Positions 6,346-34,570 are shown, numbered from the stretch's first letter. The stretch is DNA of 34,570 nt from Actinomycetota bacterium (GCA_028717265.1 JAQUOE010000011.1:9976-44545); one strand, 5' to 3'. Translations and numbers: made by a program. The notes: generated by a model from the letters alone, not told the origin.

Positions 6346-7452
6346 CTATCCCTTTTTATATAGATTATTAAATATTTTTACAAAGGCCGTAAGAAATTTC
6401 TTATTTACATCCGGTAAAGCAATAGTTACCCTTATGTATCCGGGTATTCCAAGATTTTTTCCGGGTCTTACTATAAATCCTTTTTTAAGCAGCTCTTCCA
6501 CGATCCTATCGCTATTTTCTCCGCTGTTTATTAATATGAAATTCGTGTATGATTTTATGAAACCTATTCCGTTTTTAACCAGCACATCATAAAAGTACTT
6601 CTTTTGCTCCTCTATCTTTGCTTTGATTTCGTTGACATAGGATTCATTTTCAAGTGCGGCTACAGCAGCTCTTTGCGCAACCGAATTCACATTGAATGGA
6701 AGTTTTACTTTATTTAACACTGAGATAATCGAATCTTGCGATATGCCATATCCGATCCGCAGTCCGGCCAATCCGTAAATCTTTGAAAACGTTCTCAATA
6801 TCATAAGATTTCTATTCCCTGATAAATATCCTGTGGTATCGATCTTTTCCTCAGCGGTCATATACTCGCAGTATGCCTCATCCAGAACTACCAATAAATT
6901 TTCTCCGGCATTTTCCATGACAAAATCAAGTTCGCTTCGATTGATATTGGTGCCTGTAGGATTATGTGGATTTGTAAGGAATAATATTTTTGTCGTATTA
7001 TTTACCGAATGCACCATTTTTTTCACATCCTGCCGGAAATCCTTTAGAGGGACCCTGATCACGGTCCCGCTGCGTTTAAGAACTGATTTTTCGTAAATCA
7101 AAAAAGTAGGATCGGCAATAACGGCATTTTCTCCGGGTCCCATAAAACTGTCGCATGTCATCTCTATAATCTGGTCCGTGCCATTCCCCACAATAATGGA
7201 ACCCATATCTACATTATACTTTCCGGCAAGTTTTTCCCTTACCTCACAGCATTCACCGTCGGGGTAATATTTGATGTTGCTCAGGTTCTCGCATATCTTT
7301 TTTATAACATCAGGATGCGGCCCGAATAAATTCTCATTGGAGGCAAGTTTATGAACTTCTTCCAGACCATACTCTTTTTTTATTTCTTCTATGGTTCTGC
7401 CCGGGATATATTCCGGCATCTTAGAGATCCATCCTTTGATTTCCATGCTCAT
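6346..7452 (-). CDS. hisC: Histidinol-phosphate aminotransferase
   Basis: Class I/II aminotransferase; KLASNENLFGPHPDV, TNPHNPTGTNINRSEL, LDEAYCEY, RTFSKIYGLAGLRIGYG. Stop codon TAG. Confidence 0.93.
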   Translation of the reverse strand: MSMEIKGWISKMPEYIPGRTIEEIKKEYGLEEVHKLASNENLFGPHPDVIKKICENLSNIKYYPDGECCEVREKLAGKYNVDMGSIIVGNGTDQIIEMTCDSFMGPGENAVIADPTFLIYEKSVLKRSGTVIRVPLKDFRQDVKKMVHSVNNTTKILFLTNPHNPTGTNINRSELDFVMENAGENLLVVLDEAYCEYMTAEEKIDTTGYLSGNRNLMILRTFSKIYGLAGLRIGYGISQDSIISVLNKVKLPFNVNSVAQRAAVAALENESYVNEIKAKIEEQKKYFYDVLVKNGIGFIKSYTNFILINSGENSDRIVEELLKKGFIVRPGKNLGIPGYIRVTIALPDVNKKFLTAFVKIFNNLYKKG

Positions 7453-7456
7453 TCTT

Positions 7457-8806
7457 TCATCCCTGTTTCTTTTCGAATCTTATTCTAACGGAATTTCCGT
7501 GTGCGAATAATTTTTCGTATTCCGATATTGTCTCAATAAACTTCTTTTCTTTCTCCAGTGCATCTTTAGTATAAAAAGCGACACTGCTTCTTTTTAGAAA
7601 ATCAAAAACACTCAGAGAAGAAGAAAATCTTGCATTGCTGTCCGTGGGAATGATGTGATTTGTCCCTCCAGTATAATCACCAACCGCCACCGGAGTATAA
7701 TCCCCTATAAATATTGCTCCTGCATTCTTTATTTTCTTAAGGACCTCTTCTGTGTCTTTTACCATTATTTCCAGATGTTCCGGAGCTATCATATTACAGG
7801 CCTCCACCAGCCACGCTTTATCTTTATTAAAGATTATTTTACAATTCTTTTTTAACGATTTTAAAATGACCCTGCTATTTATCTTATTCCCATATTCCTT
7901 TATAAGTGAATCTATATTTTCATATATTTTCTTAATGGCTTTTTTTGCCGTATCCAGGCTCGAAGTCAACAGTATGCTTCTGGAATCAGGATCATGTTCT
8001 GCCTGTGAAATAAGGTCGGCGGCAATAAAGACAGGATCAGCCGAATCGTCTGACAGTACCGTTATATCGCTTGGCCCGGCAAGGCTATCGATTCCGACAT
8101 TACCAAAAACCTTTTTTTTAGCTGCAGTCACATAAATATTTCCCGGCCCTACGATCTTATCTACTTTTTTGATGCTTTTCGAACCAAATGCGAGGGCCCC
8201 TATGGCCTGGGCACCGCCTATTTTATAGACTTCCCTGATCTTCAGCTTTCCAAACAAATATAAAAGAACTCTGTTCAAATTGCCATCCGGCCGAGGCGGT
8301 GTGCAGATTACAATTTCATTTACTTTTGCTATCAGAGCAGGAATTATTGCCATAAGCACCGATGAGGGATATATATATCTCCCTCCCGGTATATAGATCC
8401 CTACCCTTCCCAGTGGACGCATTATCTGTCCGACTTCTTTGCCGCTACCGGATTTCATATACCATGAACCGGTATCTTTCTTAAATTGGGTGGTGTGATA
8501 TTTCTCAATGTTTTTACGGCTTACTTCAAACGCTTTTATAAGTTCAGGAAATTCTTTTTCTACATCAGCCTGTGCGGATTCTATTTCTTTTTGTTTTACT
8601 TTAATATCATCGATATCTCCGGCTTGAAAACGATCGAACTGCCTGCAGAATTTTACTATAGCCTTATCCCCGTCTGATTCTATTTCCTTTAATATTTTTC
8701 CGACTGTTTTATCTACCGAATCAGGAATTTTTAATCCGGGGGCCATAAGATCGTATATTTCACTGATTTTTCCGGGTTTTTCAATTTTTAAAAAATCATA
8801 ATTCAT
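7457..8806 (-). CDS. hisD: Histidinol dehydrogenase
   Basis: GRVGIYIPGGRYIYPSSVLMAIIPA, GGAQAIGALAFG, VDKIVGPGNIYVTAAKK, SLAGPSDITVLSDD, APEHLEIM, GGTNHIIPTD. Confidence 0.97.
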   Translation of the reverse strand: MNYDFLKIEKPGKISEIYDLMAPGLKIPDSVDKTVGKILKEIESDGDKAIVKFCRQFDRFQAGDIDDIKVKQKEIESAQADVEKEFPELIKAFEVSRKNIEKYHTTQFKKDTGSWYMKSGSGKEVGQIMRPLGRVGIYIPGGRYIYPSSVLMAIIPALIAKVNEIVICTPPRPDGNLNRVLLYLFGKLKIREVYKIGGAQAIGALAFGSKSIKKVDKIVGPGNIYVTAAKKKVFGNVGIDSLAGPSDITVLSDDSADPVFIAADLISQAEHDPDSRSILLTSSLDTAKKAIKKIYENIDSLIKEYGNKINSRVILKSLKKNCKIIFNKDKAWLVEACNMIAPEHLEIMVKDTEEVLKKIKNAGAIFIGDYTPVAVGDYTGGTNHIIPTDSNARFSSSLSVFDFLKRSSVAFYTKDALEKEKKFIETISEYEKLFAHGNSVRIRFEKKQG

Positions 8807-11083: not shown

Positions 11084-11611
11084 TTAGAGCACATCTTCGA
11101 TAACGTTTCTAATTTGTTCCCCGGTCATCATTCCGACATTTTCGAAAACAATCTTCCCATTTCTGTCAAACACAAAGGTGGTGGGAATTGCACGTATTCC
11201 CCAGGCCGTCATGATATTTTTGTCATCTATCAAAATCGGATAATTTATATCATAGTAAGCCGTGAAACTTTTTAAGGTAGAAATGTCCTCATCCGAAACT
11301 CCAATAAATTGGACATCTTTATTTTTGTATTTATTGAATATATCCACAAAATCGGGAATCTCCGCTATGCATGGAGGGCACCATGTCGCCCAGAAGTTCA
11401 ATACAACTATCTTTCCTTTAAAATCCGATAAGGATATCTCTTTTCCGCTCAGGTCATCAAGTGTAAAATCAACATCGGAAGAAGAAACATTGCCGGATAC
11501 CCTGCAGCCTGAAAAAATAAAGATAACGGAAGCTATTAGCAGAGCCTGAATAATAATTACAAAAAAATATTTTGCTATTTCCCTATTCTTAAAAAAGTTT
11601 TTCTTTGCCAA
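11084..11611 (-). CDS. TlpA/ResA-family thioredoxin-like lipoprotein
   Basis: Lipobox-like IFSGC; GKIVVLNFWATWCPPCIAEIPDF thioredoxin active site WCPPC. TTG start; stop codon abuts the ccdA ATG. Confidence 0.92.
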   Translation of the reverse strand: MAKKNFFKNREIAKYFFVIIIQALLIASVIFIFSGCRVSGNVSSSDVDFTLDDLSGKEISLSDFKGKIVVLNFWATWCPPCIAEIPDFVDIFNKYKNKDVQFIGVSDEDISTLKSFTAYYDINYPILIDDKNIMTAWGIRAIPTTFVFDRNGKIVFENVGMMTGEQIRNVIEDVL

Positions 11612-12203
11612 ATTTGTATAAAGTCTCCAAATACTCTTTATTTTTTAGAATATCGCCTTTTCTGTCCACGTTATTAAACACAAAATCATATAAATAATCA
11701 ACATACAATACATCAAAAAAAGACCGGATCACTTTTTTGGGACAGTCAAAAATATTGACCGAGTTTGAACCGGCTGTACTTATGAAAATACCCTTTCTAT
11801 CCTTTCCGATTATCCTTTTTTTATGTTCATACTTAAGGGACCAGAATCTCTGGCATCTGTCGATCTAAGCTTTAAGATATCCCGATACGGTAGTAAAAAA
11901 AACAGGAGATGCAACAGCCAGAAAATCAGCTTCTATTAAATCTTTGTATACCTGCTGCATATCATCATCGATGATGCATTCCCCGGTTTTTGAACAATTC
12001 CCGCATCCCCTGCAGGAAGATATGTTCAGGCTGGCTGTAATTATCTTTTTGATTTCCAGATCTTTTTTAGAAACGGCGGCAGCGGATACCGTACCCTCAA
12101 GGAAACTATCCAGTAGCAATCCGGTATTGCCCTTTTTTCTGGGACTGCCATATATGGCCGCTATCTTAAAACTTTTATTTTTACTTTTGGGATTATTTTG
12201 CAT
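11589..12203 (-). pseudogene. Iron-sulfur flavoprotein / NADPH-dependent FMN reductase family, interrupted by one in-frame TAG (11865..11867)
   Basis: AAIYGSPRKKGNTGLLLDSFLEG; ISSCRGCGNCSKTGECIIDDDMQ; ASPVFFTTVSGYLKA-[TAG]-IDRCQRFWSLKYEHKKRIIGKDRKGIFISTAGSNSVNIFDCPKKVIRSFFDVLYVDYLYDFVFNNVDRKGDILKNKEYLETLYKFGKEKLF*. The frame is open on both sides of the TAG and family-consistent downstream. Confidence 0.85.
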
Positions 12204-13181: not shown

Positions 13182-14915
13182 TTATTCTATTTGTTCGATC
13201 CCGTTGACAATTTCGCCGGGAAGAAATTGCCTCCCGCTATATTTTAAAATTTTATTCTTTATCCTGTAGCCGGTATTCATCATTATGATTTTTGCAAGCT
13301 GTGAAGTCTTATTATTCTCGACCACTATATTTTTATTGCTCTTCTCGATGATCCCCTCTATGGATTCACCATCGAATGGATATAGATATGTAAAGTGAAT
13401 CAAGTTTACTTTCTTTTCTTTCTGATTCAATATATTCATGGCCTCAAGAATCGGTCCTTTACAGGATCCCCAGCTCCATATGGTTATTTCGGCATCAGTA
13501 GGACCGTATATTTTTGGAGGGGGTATTTCTTCCATTAACTTTTTTATTTTCCTGAATCGTTTATCTACCATGATCTTCCTGTTAAAGGCCCCGTCTTCCG
13601 AATATCCGTACTCATCATGTTCATCACTGTTGGCTATATGGATCCCTCTGTCTATTCCTGTTACTGCCCGCGGAGAGACACCATCTTCGGTGTTAAGATA
13701 ACGTTTATATCCCGCATCTATATCCTTGCTCCTTGTCAGCAACTTCCCTCTCTCAACCGTTATGTTTTTAAAGTCGAATCTTTCATATGAGAAATGGTTT
13801 TCTGATAAGTATTTATCAAGCATGACAATAACCGGGATCTGGTAAGTATCAGCGATATTGAACGCCTTCCCTGTAAGATAAAAACATTCTTCGGGATCAC
13901 CGGGTGCCAGTACCACCTTTAAAAATTCACCATGCGAAGCGTGAATAGCAAACAAAATATCGCCCTGTTCCGACCATGTCGGTAAACCGGTAGCAGGAGC
14001 GGGTCTCTGGCATAATATGATAACAAGCGGGGTTTCGGTTAAAGCGGCGCTGCCCAATCCTTCATTCATGAGAGAAAAACCTCCTCCCGATGTTGCGACC
14101 ATCGCCCTTACCCCTGCAAAGGAAGCGCCTATTGCCATATTTATTACCGCTATCTCATCTTCGGCATGTTTTGTTACAATGTTATAATCATTTTCGACAG
14201 ATGCGAATGATTCCAGTATCGAAGTTGAAGGAGTCATGGGATAAGCAGCATAAAATTTACAACCCGATCTGACGGCTCCCAGAAAGACTGCATCATTGCC
14301 TGTAAGGAGCATCTTGTTTACAGGCTTTACTATTTCAAGTTCGTAAGCGTTTATTTTTAATTTCTCTTTTATATATTTGTATCCGAATTCAGATGATTTG
14401 ATATTAAAACTGACGACTTCAGGTCCCTTCCTCTCGAAAATATCTCTAATGATATTTCTTAATACCTCAAGGTCGTAATTCAATAAAGCGACCGAAGCCC
14501 CCAGCGAGACATTGTTGATCATGATCCGGGGAACTCCCAGTTCCGTAATTATTTTGGAAAATGGTACCATAATATAATTGATATCTTTTCTGGCTTTTTT
14601 TATTTCCGTGATATCGCCACTATCTTCATCATAGATAATATATCCCCCATATATCACTTCTTCCTGATGAAGCTTTATGGTTTCTTCATTTAATGCAACC
14701 AGAATATTTATATCTTTATCGATGGAAAAGACCTCATTGGAACTCACCCTTACGGTGAAAGCATTATGTCCGCCTCTTATCAGCGAAGGATATTCATTGT
14801 TATCAACAACATAGTATCCCTTTTTTGCAAATATTTTCGAAAAGATAGCCCCTGTGGACATTATTCCAAAACCGGCTTCCCCGCCAATTTTCCAGCTTAT
14901 ATTCGAGACTTTCAA
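13182..14915 (-). CDS. 2-oxoacid:ferredoxin oxidoreductase, fused gamma-alpha subunit
   Basis: N-terminal gamma domain (IGGEAGFGIMSTGAIFSKIFAKKGYYVVDNNEYPSLIRGGHN) plus alpha domain (GCKFYAAYPMTPSTSILE, ATSGGGFSLMNEGLG, PLVIILCQRPAPATGLPTWSEQGD). Confidence 0.96.
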   Translation of the reverse strand: MKVSNISWKIGGEAGFGIMSTGAIFSKIFAKKGYYVVDNNEYPSLIRGGHNAFTVRVSSNEVFSIDKDINILVALNEETIKLHQEEVIYGGYIIYDEDSGDITEIKKARKDINYIMVPFSKIITELGVPRIMINNVSLGASVALLNYDLEVLRNIIRDIFERKGPEVVSFNIKSSEFGYKYIKEKLKINAYELEIVKPVNKMLLTGNDAVFLGAVRSGCKFYAAYPMTPSTSILESFASVENDYNIVTKHAEDEIAVINMAIGASFAGVRAMVATSGGGFSLMNEGLGSAALTETPLVIILCQRPAPATGLPTWSEQGDILFAIHASHGEFLKVVLAPGDPEECFYLTGKAFNIADTYQIPVIVMLDKYLSENHFSYERFDFKNITVERGKLLTRSKDIDAGYKRYLNTEDGVSPRAVTGIDRGIHIANSDEHDEYGYSEDGAFNRKIMVDKRFRKIKKLMEEIPPPKIYGPTDAEITIWSWGSCKGPILEAMNILNQKEKKVNLIHFTYLYPFDGESIEGIIEKSNKNIVVENNKTSQLAKIIMMNTGYRIKNKILKYSGRQFLPGEIVNGIEQIE

Positions 14916-15118
14916 TTTAAATCCTTACTTTTTTGAACCAATCTTAGATACATAATATTACCCTGATAACTTATTTGCAACTAATCCTAATATCTTTTTA
15001 GAACTTAATTTCAGTATATCGGTTACTTTAGATGCTGATTCAAGAAATTATTAATTCATGTGGCAAAATCCTGTTTTTTTTTAGATAATATATCGGAATC
15101 CCTGATTTAAAGAAATGA

Positions 15119-16441
15119 ATGAAGAAGTATAAATTTAAAGATACAGTTAGAATACTTTTCAGGCGCCCGGTTGTATCATGGGCCCTTTATGATTTTGCCA
15201 ACACTTCCTTTGCGGTGGTTATAATCACTATAATTTTTCCGGTTTATTTCACCGGAATAATCGCATCCCCGGAAATCTATTCCAGAAACTTTGGAGATTT
15301 AATGTGGGGAATTGCCAGCGGTACCTCTATGATAATCGCTTCTTTCCTATCACCGGTATTCGGAGCAATTGCGGACACTTCGAGGTCCAAAAATAAATTT
15401 TTGACTATCCTGACCCTGGCATGTGTTTCTTTTAGCTCGCTCCTTTTCTTTTTAAAGGAAGGAATGGTGGCCTGGGCCGTGATCCTGTTTATAGTCTCCA
15501 ACGTTTTTTATGAGACTTCGATGATGTTTTATAACTCTTTCCTTCCCGGGCTTTCTTCTAAAAAGAATACGGGTATCATATCCGGATTTGGATTCTCAAT
15601 CGGGTACCTGGGGGGCCTGATTATTTTGATACTTATTTATCCTTTTGCAGCAGGGGGAATCGAACCAGCCAACTTGTTCAACATTAAAATAACATTTATT
15701 ATTACATCAATATTCTTTTTAGTGTTTTCATTGCCATCATTTATATTCCTGAAAGATTCTCATGCTGCAAGTACCGTAAAAATTAAAACTTCTTACGTTT
15801 CTTATGGATTTAAAAAATTTATCAGTACTTTGAGAAACATAAGGAAGCACAGGGACCTTATGAAATTCCTGATTTCTTATTTTCTATTCAGTAATGCTTT
15901 TTCCGTCCTTGCCTTTTATGTAGCAATATATGCCAGAGGTACCCTGAATATGGAACTCACTGAAATAATAATGCTTTTTATATTCGGGCATATACCCGCT
16001 ATCATAAGTTCTATTTTCTTTGGCTGGCTTACCGATAAGATCGGTTCTAAACTTACTGTTACAATAACTCTCGTCATGTGGATAACAGTAATAATCCTCA
16101 TGACAGCTTCCGATATAAAAGCCGTGTTTTATGCGGGCTACATACTTGCCGCCATATCTACCGGGTCGACTCTTATCGCAAGCAGAAGCCTCATGTCATT
16201 TCTTATACCCCGGGACAGGGAAGCGGAATTTTTCGGTTTCTATTCAATAAGCGGAAAGGCATCTTCCATTCTGGGTCCGGTCACTTTTGGCATAATATCT
16301 TTTATTACAAAGAATCAGAAGATAGCTCTGCTGAGTACATTGCTTTTTCTTATAAGCGGGCTAATAATCCTGCAGTTCGTGAAAGTGACTTCATATCGGG
16401 CCAAAGAAACTGAGGGAACGGGTCACTTATCGGAAAACTGA
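15119..16441 (+). CDS. MFS transporter, UMF1 / Atg22-like family
   Basis: VSWALYDFANTSFAVVIITIIFPVYF, LSPVFGAIADTSRSKNKFL, YNSFLPGLSSKKNTGIISGFGFSIGYLGGL; about 12 TM segments. Confidence 0.9.
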   Translation: MKKYKFKDTVRILFRRPVVSWALYDFANTSFAVVIITIIFPVYFTGIIASPEIYSRNFGDLMWGIASGTSMIIASFLSPVFGAIADTSRSKNKFLTILTLACVSFSSLLFFLKEGMVAWAVILFIVSNVFYETSMMFYNSFLPGLSSKKNTGIISGFGFSIGYLGGLIILILIYPFAAGGIEPANLFNIKITFIITSIFFLVFSLPSFIFLKDSHAASTVKIKTSYVSYGFKKFISTLRNIRKHRDLMKFLISYFLFSNAFSVLAFYVAIYARGTLNMELTEIIMLFIFGHIPAIISSIFFGWLTDKIGSKLTVTITLVMWITVIILMTASDIKAVFYAGYILAAISTGSTLIASRSLMSFLIPRDREAEFFGFYSISGKASSILGPVTFGIISFITKNQKIALLSTLLFLISGLIILQFVKVTSYRAKETEGTGHLSEN

Positions 16442-28175: not shown

Positions 28176-28649
28176 ATGAGAGATTATATCGATAGCTTCT
28201 TAGCTTACATGAAAACCGAAAAAATGGCTTCACCTTCAACCATTTACGGTTACAATAAAGAGCTCAGAAAATTTTTTGATTTTATTTTTTCTATAAACAT
28301 TTTGGATATAAACTTAATTAGTACAAGAATAGTAAGGCAGTATTTCTATTATACAAAGGAGAATAGAGGCCTCGGGCAAAACACCATATCAAAAATAATT
28401 TCAACAATAAAAAGCTTTTTTAACTACCTTGAGGAAGAAGAAATAATAGTTAAAAATCCAACCAGAAAAATTAGAGTTCCTAAAAATGTATGCAGGATCC
28501 CATCTGTTATGTCAAAGTATGAGGTAGATCTAATTATTAAATCCGTAGACTTTGCTCCTTTAAGATGTAGAAAAAATAACGTGAGAGATAAACTGGTACT
28601 TTCCCTACTCTACTATACCGATATAAGGAAAAGTGAACTCAAGCTATAA
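28176..28649 (+). pseudogene. Tyrosine recombinase (XerC/D-like), truncated before the catalytic residues
   Basis: SAM-like N-terminal domain: IDSFLAYMKTEKMASPSTIYGYNKELRKFFDFIF...NTISKIISTIKSFFNYLEEEEIIVKNPTRKIRVPK; ends at SLLYYTDIRKSELKL*, the region of the first catalytic Arg. Confidence 0.85.
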
Positions 28650-28839: not shown

Positions 28840-28868
28840 TTGACATATAAATAGTAAACTTGTAACAT
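28840..28868 (+). promoter_or_regulatory. Candidate sigma70-type promoter for the exported-protein/ABC cluster
   Basis: TTGACA (28840-28845), 17-nt spacer, TAACAT (28863-28868). Confidence 0.45.
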
Positions 28869-28967
28869 ATTTTAATAATATATAATATAAGTTTTTATAA
28901 AGCATTCCTTAGATGTGCTTAACATAAGTAAGTTAAGATATAATGATATAGAGAGGAGATGTATAAA

Positions 28968-29372
28968 ATGAGTAACAAATTAATTAAGTTTTTATTGGTA
29001 TTAACTTTATTAATAGTCCTTCTAACACCTGGTTTTTTGTCTGCAGGCTGGATATCCTATAGTGGCTTTTCACTGAAACCGTTTAAAGGTAATACATACA
29101 CTGGCAATCACTCCAAACAAACAACAAACCAATATATAGTAAATAATGTTACTGCCCTTACTGATACTGATTGTGCACAGTTTTGGGCTACCCTGGGTTC
29201 ATCTTCAGGTCAAACAGAGGTATCCGGTGTTTATACTCAATATCTGAATTCTACATTAAATATACCTTTTACCTCTTATTTAGGTGCAGGCACAGTTATT
29301 GCTATGGGCATGCAGAATGGCAGGTTAGTCCCCAACTACGCATGGGTCTCAGGTCGAGTAGACTTTAAGTAA
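28968..29372 (+). CDS. Small exported protein of unknown function, first gene of an ABC cluster
   Basis: MSNKLIKFLLVLTLLIVLLTPGFLSAG|WISYSGFSLKPFKG... Sec-type signal peptide; one Cys in the mature part; RBS GAGAGGAG upstream. Confidence 0.75.
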   Translation: MSNKLIKFLLVLTLLIVLLTPGFLSAGWISYSGFSLKPFKGNTYTGNHSKQTTNQYIVNNVTALTDTDCAQFWATLGSSSGQTEVSGVYTQYLNSTLNIPFTSYLGAGTVIAMGMQNGRLVPNYAWVSGRVDFK

Positions 29373-29483
29373 TATTTAGATTATTGATTATATTTAACTA
29401 AAGTGCTGCTCTGACTTTAAGGATGTTAGGCACATCTAGGAGTATTTTATGTTTTTAGTATAGTTTAAAAGGTGATACATAGA

Positions 29484-30308
29484 ATGAAACAGATGCTTTC
29501 AATTGAATTTAGAAATTGTATTAATAGAAGAGAATTCAAGATTGTTTTCCTGATTTTATTCCTTATTTCTATTGCCGCATATTTAATAGAATGCTTTAAA
29601 TATTATGGTGGGAACTTAAGCTCCATAAGATCAGCATACGATGCGTGTATTGTAAAGAGTAGTTATTCACTCTTTATAATACAATTTGAAGCCTTTCTTG
29701 CGCCTATACTGGCTTTACCTGTATATTCAGATTCATATTATACTGATTGCAGATGTGGAGTGCATAAATATATAATGACAAGGACCAATATGAAGACCTA
29801 TATAGCATCTAAAGGTATTATAATATTTACAGTTACTTTTTTTATTTTTTTCATACCTTTATTAATAAATCAACTTTTAGCTTTTATAGCATTCCCCCTG
29901 AATGGTTATGATAACATATTTGGTCTTCCTTTATATTACCTTTATTACAACAAAGAATACCTCTTTGATTTTATAAGGCTACAATGGCCTTACCTTTTTA
30001 ATTTAATATGGATGTTTTTCCTGAGCCTGTTTGCAGGATTATTTGCTTTGCTGGGGTATTCCATGTACTTTATTTTTAAAAAAAATAGAATATCTGTACT
30101 TATAGGTTTGTATATGTTCTTTGTTTTATCGGAATTACTGTTAGCTTTGTTAGGTTTTTATAGACTGTCTTTATTAGAATATATGTTTTCCACTACAAGA
30201 GGATATCCCTTAATTATGGTGCTGTGGGTCTTAGTATTATTGATACCAGCTATTTCCATAATAGCTACTAAAGGCGTAAATGATGAACCAGATATTAGCA
30301 AGAAATAG
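29484..30308 (+). CDS. ABC-2-like transporter membrane subunit 1
   Basis: Multi-TM; MLSIEFRNCINRREFKIVFLILFLISIAAYLIE...; ATG 29484 with AAAGGTGAT upstream. Confidence 0.72.
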   Translation: MKQMLSIEFRNCINRREFKIVFLILFLISIAAYLIECFKYYGGNLSSIRSAYDACIVKSSYSLFIIQFEAFLAPILALPVYSDSYYTDCRCGVHKYIMTRTNMKTYIASKGIIIFTVTFFIFFIPLLINQLLAFIAFPLNGYDNIFGLPLYYLYYNKEYLFDFIRLQWPYLFNLIWMFFLSLFAGLFALLGYSMYFIFKKNRISVLIGLYMFFVLSELLLALLGFYRLSLLEYMFSTTRGYPLIMVLWVLVLLIPAISIIATKGVNDEPDISKK

Positions 30309-31068
30309 AACTGTCAAAATAAAAAAGATTCATAGGCTTCTGGCCAGAACCCTTCTTAAATCTAAAAGGTTGTACATATTTATAGCTCTTATATTAATAG
30401 CATCGTTAGGAGTTGGATGGCACTATCGTGCTGTTACGGCAAACACTGAAAATAAAAATGATATGCTGCTTTCAATATACCAGGATACTTTATCAACAAT
30501 AACTATTTTAATTATAATTGTGCCATTTTTCTTATATCTGATCGAATTCGTTGTGGAAGTATTTAATAAATGTAATGTTTTACTAAAATACAGGAATTTA
30601 AAAGAATGGTGGTATGATGAAAATATATCAATGCTTATTTTCTCAGTTATATTTACTTTCATAATAAATCTTGTGATATTGATTATCATATTATTTATCG
30701 GGAAAATAAGTATTATTGATATTAATATGATAAAGTTCCTTATTGTAGGATTCTTTCTTCAAATTGCTGGTTTTCTGATACTATCAAGTATATTTAATAT
30801 TGTAGTCCTTTTAGTCAATCATCCTTTTTTAGGTTTCCCGATTACTTATTTTATTATTCTACCGTTTAGTCTTATAGGATATATATTTCATAATTCAAGA
30901 GCCTCGATGCTTGCGCTCAATGAGTATATGTTTCTTGGATATAAAGAAAATATCATAATAAACATTGATGACATTTTTAAAATTCTCTGGTTAGTTCTTA
31001 TTTATTTAATAATTTGCTTAATCGGTTACTTTATTGTTAAAGACAAAGATATATATTGGAAGGCTTAA
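30280..31068 (+). CDS. ABC-2-like transporter membrane subunit 2
   Basis: Multi-TM; overlaps the previous gene by 29 nt; syntenic with an ABC ATPase. Confidence 0.68.
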   Translation: MMNQILARNRTVKIKKIHRLLARTLLKSKRLYIFIALILIASLGVGWHYRAVTANTENKNDMLLSIYQDTLSTITILIIIVPFFLYLIEFVVEVFNKCNVLLKYRNLKEWWYDENISMLIFSVIFTFIINLVILIIILFIGKISIIDINMIKFLIVGFFLQIAGFLILSSIFNIVVLLVNHPFLGFPITYFIILPFSLIGYIFHNSRASMLALNEYMFLGYKENIIINIDDIFKILWLVLIYLIICLIGYFIVKDKDIYWKA

Positions 31069-31071
31069 TAA

Positions 31072-31884
31072 ATGAATATATTTTCCCTTAACTGGAAAAT
31101 GATGCGCGGAGTTTTTAAAAGTTTCTTTCTTGGTGTTGGGCTTATTGCGATAATAGGAGTATATAATGTTCATACATGTATAATTTTTGAATCAAAATAT
31201 TTAGAAAGTTTGTTTCTTTTATCATTTGGTCATTTGGGACTGGATGACATAATCATCATCATGATATTGTTATGGATTACACCACAATTATTTTTAATAT
31301 GGATATTAAGAGACTGTATCAGTAGTGAACTTGATGCAAGTGCAGCTTATATATTCACGAGAACCAAAAAGAGATCTGGATGGCTTTTATCTAAGCTTCT
31401 ATTTCTATTCATAATAAATCTTCTATACTGGCTAATCCAGTTTACTGTATTATATTTGATCGGTATCATAACTGGATTTGGCTTTTATAATATACAGGAA
31501 GGGATCCTATTGATCTTCAGGCAATATGTTCTGATGGTACTATTAAGTTATTTTTATATTTTAATTGTTAATATTTTATCTCTAAAAAGCAATGTGATAA
31601 TAGGTTTTTTTACAGCAGTTTCTATAAACATAATCTCAATTCTTATATCTCCTTTTTTTTATAAGTATTTAGAGAAAGGTCCAGTTCTGATAAAGTTGTT
31701 GCCTTCAAGTCAGGCCATAGTCACATGGCATGATTCGATAACCGGGTTTTCCAATAAGCTTGGCTTATTCGAATTCAGATTAAGCGGTTTTAGTATTATT
31801 TATTCTTTAGTTTACCTAATTATTTTTTGCCTTGCATTTATAATTTACGGGTGTTATTCGATTGAGCATATGGATATCGTTTAA
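31072..31884 (+). CDS. ABC-2-like transporter membrane subunit 3
   Basis: Multi-TM; MNIFSLNWKMMRGVFKSFFLGVGLIAIIGVYN...; begins 3 nt after the previous stop codon. Confidence 0.68.
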   Translation: MNIFSLNWKMMRGVFKSFFLGVGLIAIIGVYNVHTCIIFESKYLESLFLLSFGHLGLDDIIIIMILLWITPQLFLIWILRDCISSELDASAAYIFTRTKKRSGWLLSKLLFLFIINLLYWLIQFTVLYLIGIITGFGFYNIQEGILLIFRQYVLMVLLSYFYILIVNILSLKSNVIIGFFTAVSINIISILISPFFYKYLEKGPVLIKLLPSSQAIVTWHDSITGFSNKLGLFEFRLSGFSIIYSLVYLIIFCLAFIIYGCYSIEHMDIV

Positions 31885-31904
31885 GATAACAGGAGGTATA
31901 AAAT

Positions 31905-32552
31905 ATGGATTTTATAGAAATTGTAAATCTAAATAAAGTGATTGGTGGAAAGGACATTTTAGTGGATGTTAATTTAAAATTGGAGCCTGGTAAAATATAT
32001 ATTTTTTGTGGCAGAAACGGATCAGGCAAGACGATGCTTTTCAGAGCTATGTGTGGTTTGATTAAGCCAACATCCGGGGAGATTAAAATAAACGGTAAGA
32101 TACTACATAAGGATATGTCATTTCCCAAAAGTGTGGGAGTAATAATAGAATCCCCAGGGTTCTGGGATTATTATACAGGCTTTGAAAATTTAAAGATACT
32201 TGCATCCATAAAGAATGTTATAACAGACGATGAAATAAAAGAAGCAATTACAAGAGTAGGGCTGGAACCGGAAGATAACCGTATATATAAAAAATATTCC
32301 ATGGGAATGAAGCAAAGGCTTGCCATAGCTCAGGCTATAATGGAAAAGCCGGATTTGCTTATTTTGGATGAACCTGCAGATTCATTGGATGAAGACGGAA
32401 AGGAACTTTTTAGAAACTTATTGCTGGAAGAAAAAGCAAGAGGCGTAACCATACTCATTGCTCTTCCTGATAAAGAGGACATTGATTTTTTATTTGATTA
32501 TCAATTTAAAGTAAGAGACGGTAAAGTAACGCCTGGGGATATACAACAATAA
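31905..32552 (+). CDS. ABC transporter ATP-binding protein, BcrA/CcmA-like
   Basis: Walker A GRNGSGKT, signature YSMGMKQRLAIAQAI, Walker B LLILDEPADSLD; RBS AGGAGG upstream. Confidence 0.93.
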   Translation: MDFIEIVNLNKVIGGKDILVDVNLKLEPGKIYIFCGRNGSGKTMLFRAMCGLIKPTSGEIKINGKILHKDMSFPKSVGVIIESPGFWDYYTGFENLKILASIKNVITDDEIKEAITRVGLEPEDNRIYKKYSMGMKQRLAIAQAIMEKPDLLILDEPADSLDEDGKELFRNLLLEEKARGVTILIALPDKEDIDFLFDYQFKVRDGKVTPGDIQQ

Positions 32553-32563
32553 GGGAGAGAACG

Positions 32564-33316
32564 ATGAAGAAGGGCGATAAGGTAATAGTAATTTTGGTAA
32601 GTCTAATTTTAATAGTGAGCGTAGTTGTGGGATTTATGACGAGGCAGTCTTATTATGATGATACAGATTTTAATAAGGCGGTAGAAAACATTGATAGTTT
32701 TGATGTGGAACTTGAACCCATTTCGCTTTTCCCGGAAGATCCATTTTTGAGCACACTCGGGGAACAATACGGGCAGGAAGACATAAATAGTTTTTCTGAA
32801 TTGCAAGATAAATCCGATTTAATTGTTAAGGTAATACCAACAGATGATAGAAAAGTGCTTTTTGCAAGAACCATACTTTCCAAGGTGAAAGTACTGGATG
32901 TATATAAAGGGAAAGATATAACAGCCAGTGATAACCTTTATATTTATGAACCCTGTAACATCCAATTTGGCAAAGCTGAGCTTTATGAGTCCTATGATGG
33001 GTATATATTTATGCATAAAGCCAGGGAATATGTACTTTTTTTGAAGAAATTAAATGTACCGGAGGGTTATAGATATAGAGGAAAAGAAAAAATAAGTTAT
33101 GTATTAACATCTATGGCTTTTGGGAAATACTCTGTACAAGCTTACGGACATACTGAGATTATAGATGAGGATAGAGTAAATCCCTACATAGCAGATAAAA
33201 CTATAAAATTTGCTGAAATAAAGGATATGAATTTAATAGCTATTAGGATGGAGACATTAAAAAAATACAATAAAATAAAAGAACAACTGATAGCACAGGA
33301 TATGATAGACCCGTAA
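32564..33316 (+). CDS. Membrane-anchored extracytoplasmic protein of unknown function
   Basis: N-terminal TM (VIVILVSLILIVSVVVGFM), then a hydrophilic domain with SDLIVKV...VKVLDVYKG...YVLFLKKL. 11-nt gap to the ABC ATPase, AGGGAGAG RBS. Confidence 0.72.
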   Translation: MKKGDKVIVILVSLILIVSVVVGFMTRQSYYDDTDFNKAVENIDSFDVELEPISLFPEDPFLSTLGEQYGQEDINSFSELQDKSDLIVKVIPTDDRKVLFARTILSKVKVLDVYKGKDITASDNLYIYEPCNIQFGKAELYESYDGYIFMHKAREYVLFLKKLNVPEGYRYRGKEKISYVLTSMAFGKYSVQAYGHTEIIDEDRVNPYIADKTIKFAEIKDMNLIAIRMETLKKYNKIKEQLIAQDMIDP

Positions 33317-33705: not shown

Positions 33706-34570
33706 ATGGTTAATAAAGCAAATTCAAATTCAGACAAAATAAAAATAATTTATAAGTGGGAGAATTATACAAATAATTTTGAATTATTGTTATTTGATGA
33801 TGATATTTTGACTTTAATTTTTGTAATCGATGAAACTATACCAAGTTTTAGAAAAGGTTATGAAGGAAGTAAATTACTCAACTTATATATAGATTTATTG
33901 AAAAAAGCAGATGAGAAAATAAATAAGAATTTTATTAATTTTTATGATTCAGCTATTAGTAAAAAATCAAAAAAATTATTAATTAAAAATAAAAAGAAAA
34001 ATCCTCCAATTATATTTAAAAAATATAAGAAAAAAGAAACTATAATTAAAAACTTGCAAAAAATAATTTGCCTATATAGGAACATTTTTAATCCTAACAA
34101 TATATTAAATTTTATAAGTAATAATTTTGAAGACAATACAATATTAGAGATTTACTTAAGATACTACTTAAAATCTTTAATCTATTTTAACGAGCATAAA
34201 CCTAAAAAACTAGATGATCGATTATATAAAAATATTATTAAAAATACTTTTTCCAAAGTAACAAACAACATCAAAGATATTTTAAATGCCAACAAGGAAA
34301 TAATAGCACGATATTATTTAGATATAATAAATAAGATAATTGAAGATATTAAAGGTACAGAAAATTTTGAGTTCAAAAAATTTAAAGAGGTTTTAGAAGG
34401 AGGCCATGGAGACCTAAATAAAAATTATTATATTAAAATTATTAAGTTCCTTTTCAAGGATCAAATAAATTTAAATAAAGAAAATATTGAACAAGAGTAT
34501 AAGAAAGTTTTGAGCGAATTTATTCTAAGGACTCTTTTTATTCTTATTTCTAACCCATTACTTTTTAATC
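33706..34570 (+). CDS. Lys/Ile/Asn-rich protein of unknown function, truncated by window end
   Basis: 288 sense codons without a stop: MVNKANSNSDKIKIIYKWENYTNNFELLLFDDDILTLIFVIDETIPSFRKGYEGSKLL...; absent from the ORF track because it has no stop in the window. Confidence 0.78.
   Translation, partial: MVNKANSNSDKIKIIYKWENYTNNFELLLFDDDILTLIFVIDETIPSFRKGYEGSKLLNLYIDLLKKADEKINKNFINFYDSAISKKSKKLLIKNKKKNPPIIFKKYKKKETIIKNLQKIICLYRNIFNPNNILNFISNNFEDNTILEIYLRYYLKSLIYFNEHKPKKLDDRLYKNIIKNTFSKVTNNIKDILNANKEIIARYYLDIINKIIEDIKGTENFEFKKFKEVLEGGHGDLNKNYYIKIIKFLFKDQINLNKENIEQEYKKVLSEFILRTLFILISNPLLFN

Follow-up and report, generated by a model that had tools for sequence, protein, structure and literature searches.

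Gene content and boundaries of the locus

The window, i.e., the whole 34,570-nt stretch of DNA analyzed here, from the metagenome-assembled genome (MAG) of an Actinomycetota bacterium, contains six open reading frames (ORFs) between positions 28959 and 33316, all in the same (+) direction. The lead gene (28968 to 29372) encodes 134 amino acids (aa) from the ATG at 28968 or 137 aa from the ATG at 28959. It is followed by three polytopic membrane subunits: M1 (GTG 29472 or ATG 29484 to 30308), which is ABC-2-like by position-specific homology and profile search; M2 (30280 to 31068), assigned through a weak full-length profile match to the WxPxxD-type subunit of Bacilli; and M3 (31072 to 31884), considered DUF2705-like based on a sub-cut-off match to PF10920 and a position-matched profile. 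An ABC ATPase gene (31905 to 32552) and the gene for a 250-aa single-pass, extracytoplasmic anchored protein (32564 to 33316), recognized by family homology and position, complete the set. From M1 onward, the genes are separated by −29, 3, 20, and 11 nt. These coordinates bear out the initial annotation of six co-directional genes, overlapping or at most 20 nt apart from M1 onward.

A promoter-like element proposed in the same annotation (28840 to 28868, TTGACA-17-TAACAT) did not hold up, as 24 such matches were counted, compared to 29 ± 6 in shuffled sequences. The element is also located upstream of, and outside, the block that the window shares with a second copy of the cassette (L010, see below), which begins at 28885. 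In addition, the view of the cluster as self-contained needs to be qualified: the genes do form a cassette, but it is transferable, adjoins an integrase fragment (28176 to 28649), and lies near the contig end, which coincides with the window end (34570). The integrase fragment, just upstream of the cassette, is a 157-aa piece of a tyrosine recombinase that comprises only the N-terminal SAM-like domain and the start of the next domain. Downstream, a very A+T-rich reading frame (33707 to 34570; ~23% GC) apparently runs off the contig end. PADLOC and PHROGs searches returned only generic ATPase and integrase matches.

The lead gene is enclosed by an inverted repeat, with a 5′ arm in the lead leader region (28897 to 28926, +; core AGATGTGCTTAACAT at 28911 to 28925) and a 3′ arm between the lead and M1 (29423 to 29452, +; core at 29423 to 29437). 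The 15-mer RGATGTGCYTAACAT has two mismatch-free sites in the 1.59-Mb host genome, inverted and positioned before and after the lead, and a third site with one mismatch. L010 has the same arms (11293 to 11307 and 11805 to 11819) at the same 512-nt spacing. In both minimum free energy (MFE) and centroid RNA folds, the arms pair in the window and in L010, forming a predicted helix that closes around the lead, but the total fold energy is no better than that of shuffled sequences. No comparable inverted repeat was found at the same place or strength around the leads of other loci in an exact-match scan, which understates even the window arms, as these contain one mismatch. The repeat may mark the boundary of the cassette, serve as a binding site for a regulator, or act in processing of the transcript between the lead and the ABC genes.

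Second copy in Caldisericota and the ATPase H-loop

When 84,980 genomes were scanned for the anchored protein, a single relative was retrieved: L010, which belongs to Caldisericota bacterium UBA646, like the window host a metagenome assembly. L010 carries all six genes, with 84, 81, 77, 79, 94, and 83% amino acid identity to those of the window. Because the cassette genes are this similar while the RecA proteins of the two hosts are only 58% identical, recent horizontal transfer is indicated.

The gene order of L010 is permuted. The ATPase and anchored-protein genes come first, followed by a Fic-like gene and pieces of an IS3-like transposase (both assigned by our own ORF reading), and then by lead-M1-M2-M3. 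The insert follows an hflX-like gene, the end of which is present again at the far side as a 69-bp copy with 98.6% identity, giving an att-like direct repeat (6993 to 7061 and 15078 to 15146). A second, inner direct repeat of 27 bp (7278 to 7304 and 14361 to 14387) flanks the two halves. Synonymous divergence (dS) between the window and L010 equals 0.36 to 0.73 for the lead through M3 and 0.20 to 0.27 for the ATPase and anchored-protein genes. The permuted order, combined with this difference between the halves, shows that L010 has been rearranged or is a mosaic; of the two arrangements, that of the window is probably the ancestral one.

For all six genes, the dN/dS ratio between the two copies is below 1 (0.11 to 0.47), at unsaturated dS (0.20 to 0.73). 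This purifying selection shows that all six are real, functional genes. It is strongest for the ATPase (0.11), and the lead (0.24; 0.12 to 0.44) is not diversifying.

The ATPase has a Walker A motif (GRNGSGKT), a signature motif (YSMGMKQR), a Walker B motif (LLILDE), and a D-loop. At the H-loop (residues ~187 to 190), however, Leu-Pro occupies the place of Ser-His, and the L010 ATPase (7342 to 8004) has Phe-Pro, whereas the histidine is kept, as SH, CH, or AH, in all ~40 related ATPases with a readable region. The divergence between the two copies and the purifying selection on this gene, stronger than on the other five, mark the loss as a lineage trait and not an error. Loss of the histidine may render ATP turnover slow or absent. 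That a near-universal ABC catalytic residue has been lost under purifying selection poses a defined biochemical question. The window ATPase is 52% identical to DUF2712-linked ATPases and ~41% identical to BcrA. Its best NCBIfam model is TIGR03740 (lantibiotic protection; E value, 2.5e-44), at 151.6 bits against a cut-off of 309.75. TIGR03608, the ATPase model used to test for the lactococcin 972 family, scores 93 bits, below its cut-off of 254.85.

Protein families and related cassettes

The lead protein consists of one hydrophobic N-terminal segment and a polar remainder of ~108 residues. Its N-terminal sequence confirms that the 137-aa ORF has a Sec-like signal and lacks a double-glycine leader, as first annotated. 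Pfam assigned no family to the window lead at an E value of ≤1, which leaves it outside PF10916 (DUF2712), and searches of plasmids, viral contigs, and 60 relatives retrieved only the lead itself. The pairwise score between the window lead and the lead of the related locus L045 was matched by 4 of 1,000 shuffles. A profile of six related leads was matched as well by 2 of 1,000 shuffles for the window lead, by 1 of 1,000 for the L010 lead, and by 0, 0, and 1 of 1,000 for DUF2712 leads; with a DUF2712 profile against the window lead, 31 of 1,000 shuffles scored as high. The pairwise score, the six-lead profile, and the matched gene order together link the window lead to that of L045. With moderate confidence, these comparisons place the window lead as a putative distant member of a DUF2712-like superfamily. 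Lactococcin 972 was considered as an identity for the lead and rejected, as no sequence similarity was found in a single-sequence test.

One transmembrane segment, at the N terminus, tethers the anchored protein, which has no lipobox. Its alignment scores with the L045 anchored protein and with a Listeria lipoprotein were reached by 0 of 1,000 shuffles, and judged by these scores its link to L045 and Listeria is firmer than that of the lead. The gene of this Listeria lipoprotein (L012, 7857 to 8435) stands alone, without adjoining ABC genes. Across related loci, the anchored proteins fall in unrelated families. A strand-rich, "KG"-centered pattern had raised the idea of an NTR/TIMP-like domain, which is backed by no tool and is not claimed here. 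Initially, neither the lead nor the anchored protein could be placed in a named family. Families of homologs have now been found for both, but neither could be assigned to a named functional family. AlphaFold2 models from two-sequence alignments reached a mean pLDDT of 44 (lead) and 32 (anchored protein), too low for a fold to be claimed, and PDB sequence searches with enlarged profiles gave best E values of 0.67 and 0.86, which is chance level.

Among the membrane subunits, M1 is related in a position-specific manner to its counterparts in profile comparisons (E values of 1e-12 for Bacilli and 5e-15 for Clostridia/Collinsella), and so is M3 (E values of 4e-4 and 4e-6). Against PF10920 (DUF2705), M3 aligns over its full length at 12.1 bits (E value, 0.12; cut-off, 22.4). 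M2 matches the WxPxxD-type subunit at the corresponding position in Bacilli over its full length, but weakly (E value, 0.005). M2 has no NCBIfam match to the WxPxxD family model NF035952, on which the M2 of the related locus L019 scores 229 bits.

Related gene sets, comprising a small Sec-type protein, M1, additional membrane subunits, an ATPase, and in most cases an anchored protein, have a patchy distribution: they occur in Priestia, Listeria, Carnobacterium, Vescimonas, and Collinsella as well as in numerous genomes of the host's phylum. The M1 profile matches 12 of 397 genomes of this phylum and none of six host congeners, and the anchored-protein profile matches 18 of 300 genomes of a related class. 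The lead profile, which includes L045 and is by itself no proof of the window-L045 link, matches 3 of 300 genomes, each time within ~3 kb of an anchored-protein match. In every one of the 16 loci that were fetched after matching the anchored-protein profile, the ATPase gene lies immediately before the anchored-protein gene; M1 belongs to the cluster as well and is nearly always upstream. Co-occurrence of the ABC genes with lead or anchored-protein homologs, on which the initial annotation depended, is therefore seen in all of these loci and in all three genomes. The order lead-M1-M2-(M3)-ATPase-anchored is kept in L045, L081, L082, and further loci. A Sec-type small protein is found near M1 in about half of the related loci; beside the ABC and anchored-protein genes of others (e.g., L022, L083, L087, L088, L092, L095, and L096), no such lead was seen, a provisional assessment based on ORF and signal heuristics. 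In Lachnospira eligens, a related ABC set (L021, 1758 to 9193) adjoins genes for an agr-type peptide, AgrB, a LytTR regulator, and a histidine kinase.

Plasmid-collection records of matching layout were reached via the ATPase. Priestia sp. J2 is annotated with DUF2712, hypothetical, WxPxxD, DUF2705, and ABC genes, and Priestia aryabhattai with DUF2712, DUF2705, WxPxxD, DUF2705, ABC, and a 211-aa anchored protein. A Listeria locus encodes a DUF2712 protein, three membrane proteins, an ATPase, and a 206-aa anchored protein. Carnobacterium, Vescimonas, and Collinsella combine other small Sec proteins and other anchored proteins with the ABC genes. Among 14 control genomes, PF10916 and PF10920 match only Bacillus subtilis, consistent with its yybN operon, whose order we take to be yybN-yybM-yybL-yybK-yybJ. 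The operon is a target of Rok, listed with sboA-alb, sunA, sdpABC, yydH, and bhlA (PMC2978689); another paper also includes it in the Rok regulon, with the label "of unknown function" (PMC11841835). It is now tied to a large, patchy set of cassettes in several phyla.

Like the yybN, Priestia, and Listeria loci, the window has a small Sec-exported lead first, followed by membrane subunits and an ATPase of the same subfamily, and like P. aryabhattai and Listeria it ends with an anchored protein and has a homologous M1 at the matched position. Judged from sequence, the M1 homology, the ATPase subfamily, and the co-directional, lead-first order make the window set a divergent variant of the DUF2712/DUF2705 cassettes of the B. 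subtilis yybN-yybJ type. It differs from these in that its lead and M2 fall below Pfam/NCBIfam detection, the H-loop histidine is lost, and its anchored protein shows no similarity to those of L019 and L020, belonging to another family. The cassettes of L045, L081, L082, and other genomes in the host's phylum share the lead family, M1, ATPase, anchored family, and order with the window, but have two or three membrane subunits, in some cases a second secreted protein, and an intact H-loop histidine. The lactococcin 972 locus (pBL1) likewise combines a Sec-exported small protein with a following membrane protein and ATPase; its lead is unrelated, its single membrane protein has 648 aa, and its gene table lists no anchored protein. 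LanFEG/BcrAB immunity transporters share the ATPase superfamily and separate membrane subunits. In contrast to these, the window set has an ATPase below the TIGR03740 cut-off, an extra membrane subunit, and an anchored protein, and no lanthipeptide genes were found among the window ORFs.

Possible function of the cassette

Our preferred interpretation, to which we assign a probability of about 0.5, is a secreted antagonistic protein encoded together with its self-protection. The lead would be exported by Sec as a free protein of ~108 residues and act on competing cells. M1 to M3 and the ATPase would assemble into an ABC-2-type complex, with the protein encoded behind the ATPase as its presumed extracytoplasmic partner. 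Complex and partner could then capture the lead on the outer face of the membrane, to expel it or to keep it off its target, and so provide immunity. This interpretation is favored by the conserved order, mobility, sporadic distribution, purifying selection, and ABC modules without a lead, as well as by the listing of yybN beside the other Rok targets named above (PMC2978689), the best NCBIfam model being TIGR03740 (albeit below its cut-off), and the lactococcin 972-like layout. Immunity genes often occur in orphan modules of this kind. The initial annotation had doubted that the ABC complex is simply the exporter of the lead; the roughly half of loci in which no lead is (provisionally) recognized argue likewise, fitting immunity or sensing better than simple export. 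Against this interpretation count the non-diversifying dN/dS of the lead, the many possible causes of fast divergence in small secreted proteins, and the missing H-loop histidine of the window ATPase, which makes energized export doubtful. No experimental paper on any homolog was found in the open-access literature. Lead toxicity, and then protection by the ABC and anchored proteins, form a clear order of questions.

Conserved synteny would fit equally well if the ABC complex processed or released the lead. The ABC and anchored proteins could mature, extract, or release a nontoxic surface or matrix protein after Sec export, in line with the strict co-directional order, the joint movement of lead and ABC genes between phyla, and the extracytoplasmic location of the anchored protein. 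We nevertheless consider this rather unlikely, since many homologous ABC-anchor modules have no recognized adjacent lead, the leads already possess Sec signals and lack a membrane anchor, and the anchored proteins come from unrelated families in different loci. It is similarly improbable that the cassette is a BcrAB/Bce-type module for envelope stress or for peptide sensing and detoxification, in which the secreted lead would act as a scavenger or a sensor ligand and not as a weapon. The BcrA-like ATPase, the agr-type neighborhood of the L. eligens relative, and another relative with an upstream sigma factor and a DUF4367 protein point in this direction. However, no two-component system or regulator was found in the window cluster, the ATPase is nearer to its DUF2712-linked relatives than to BcrA, and M1 to M3 are separate proteins of ~260 aa each, unlike BceB with its large extracellular domain.

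A further, quite improbable variant takes the window ATPase as an ATP-binding gate or a very slow enzyme, in a complex that sequesters the lead instead of pumping it. The altered H-loop amid otherwise intact motifs and the strong selection on the gene would fit, but the Walker B glutamate is intact, loss of the ABC switch histidine does not always abolish turnover, and only two sequences have the change. Unrelated housekeeping genes adjacent by chance, an idea with nothing but poor gene annotation in its favor, are hardly credible: the conserved synteny refutes them, and the scattered occurrence in different phyla counts against them as well.

If the lead is indeed an antagonist, it is tempting, albeit speculative, to unite the DUF2712-like leads, their diverged "GVWSPD" and "SGRVDF" relatives, and the ABC-plus-anchor partners in one large undescribed class of Sec-secreted bacteriocins with self-protection. 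This class would span Bacillota, Actinomycetota-like genomes, and Caldisericota, with an ABC complex that binds rather than pumps in the window lineage.

Related cassettes also contain a second small secreted family, ending in V.(M/I)YSW and located upstream of the lead position (L082, 7198 to 7596; L090, 7648 to 8127; L091, 1791 to 2267; L093, 7554 to 8012; L094, 7573 to 8040).
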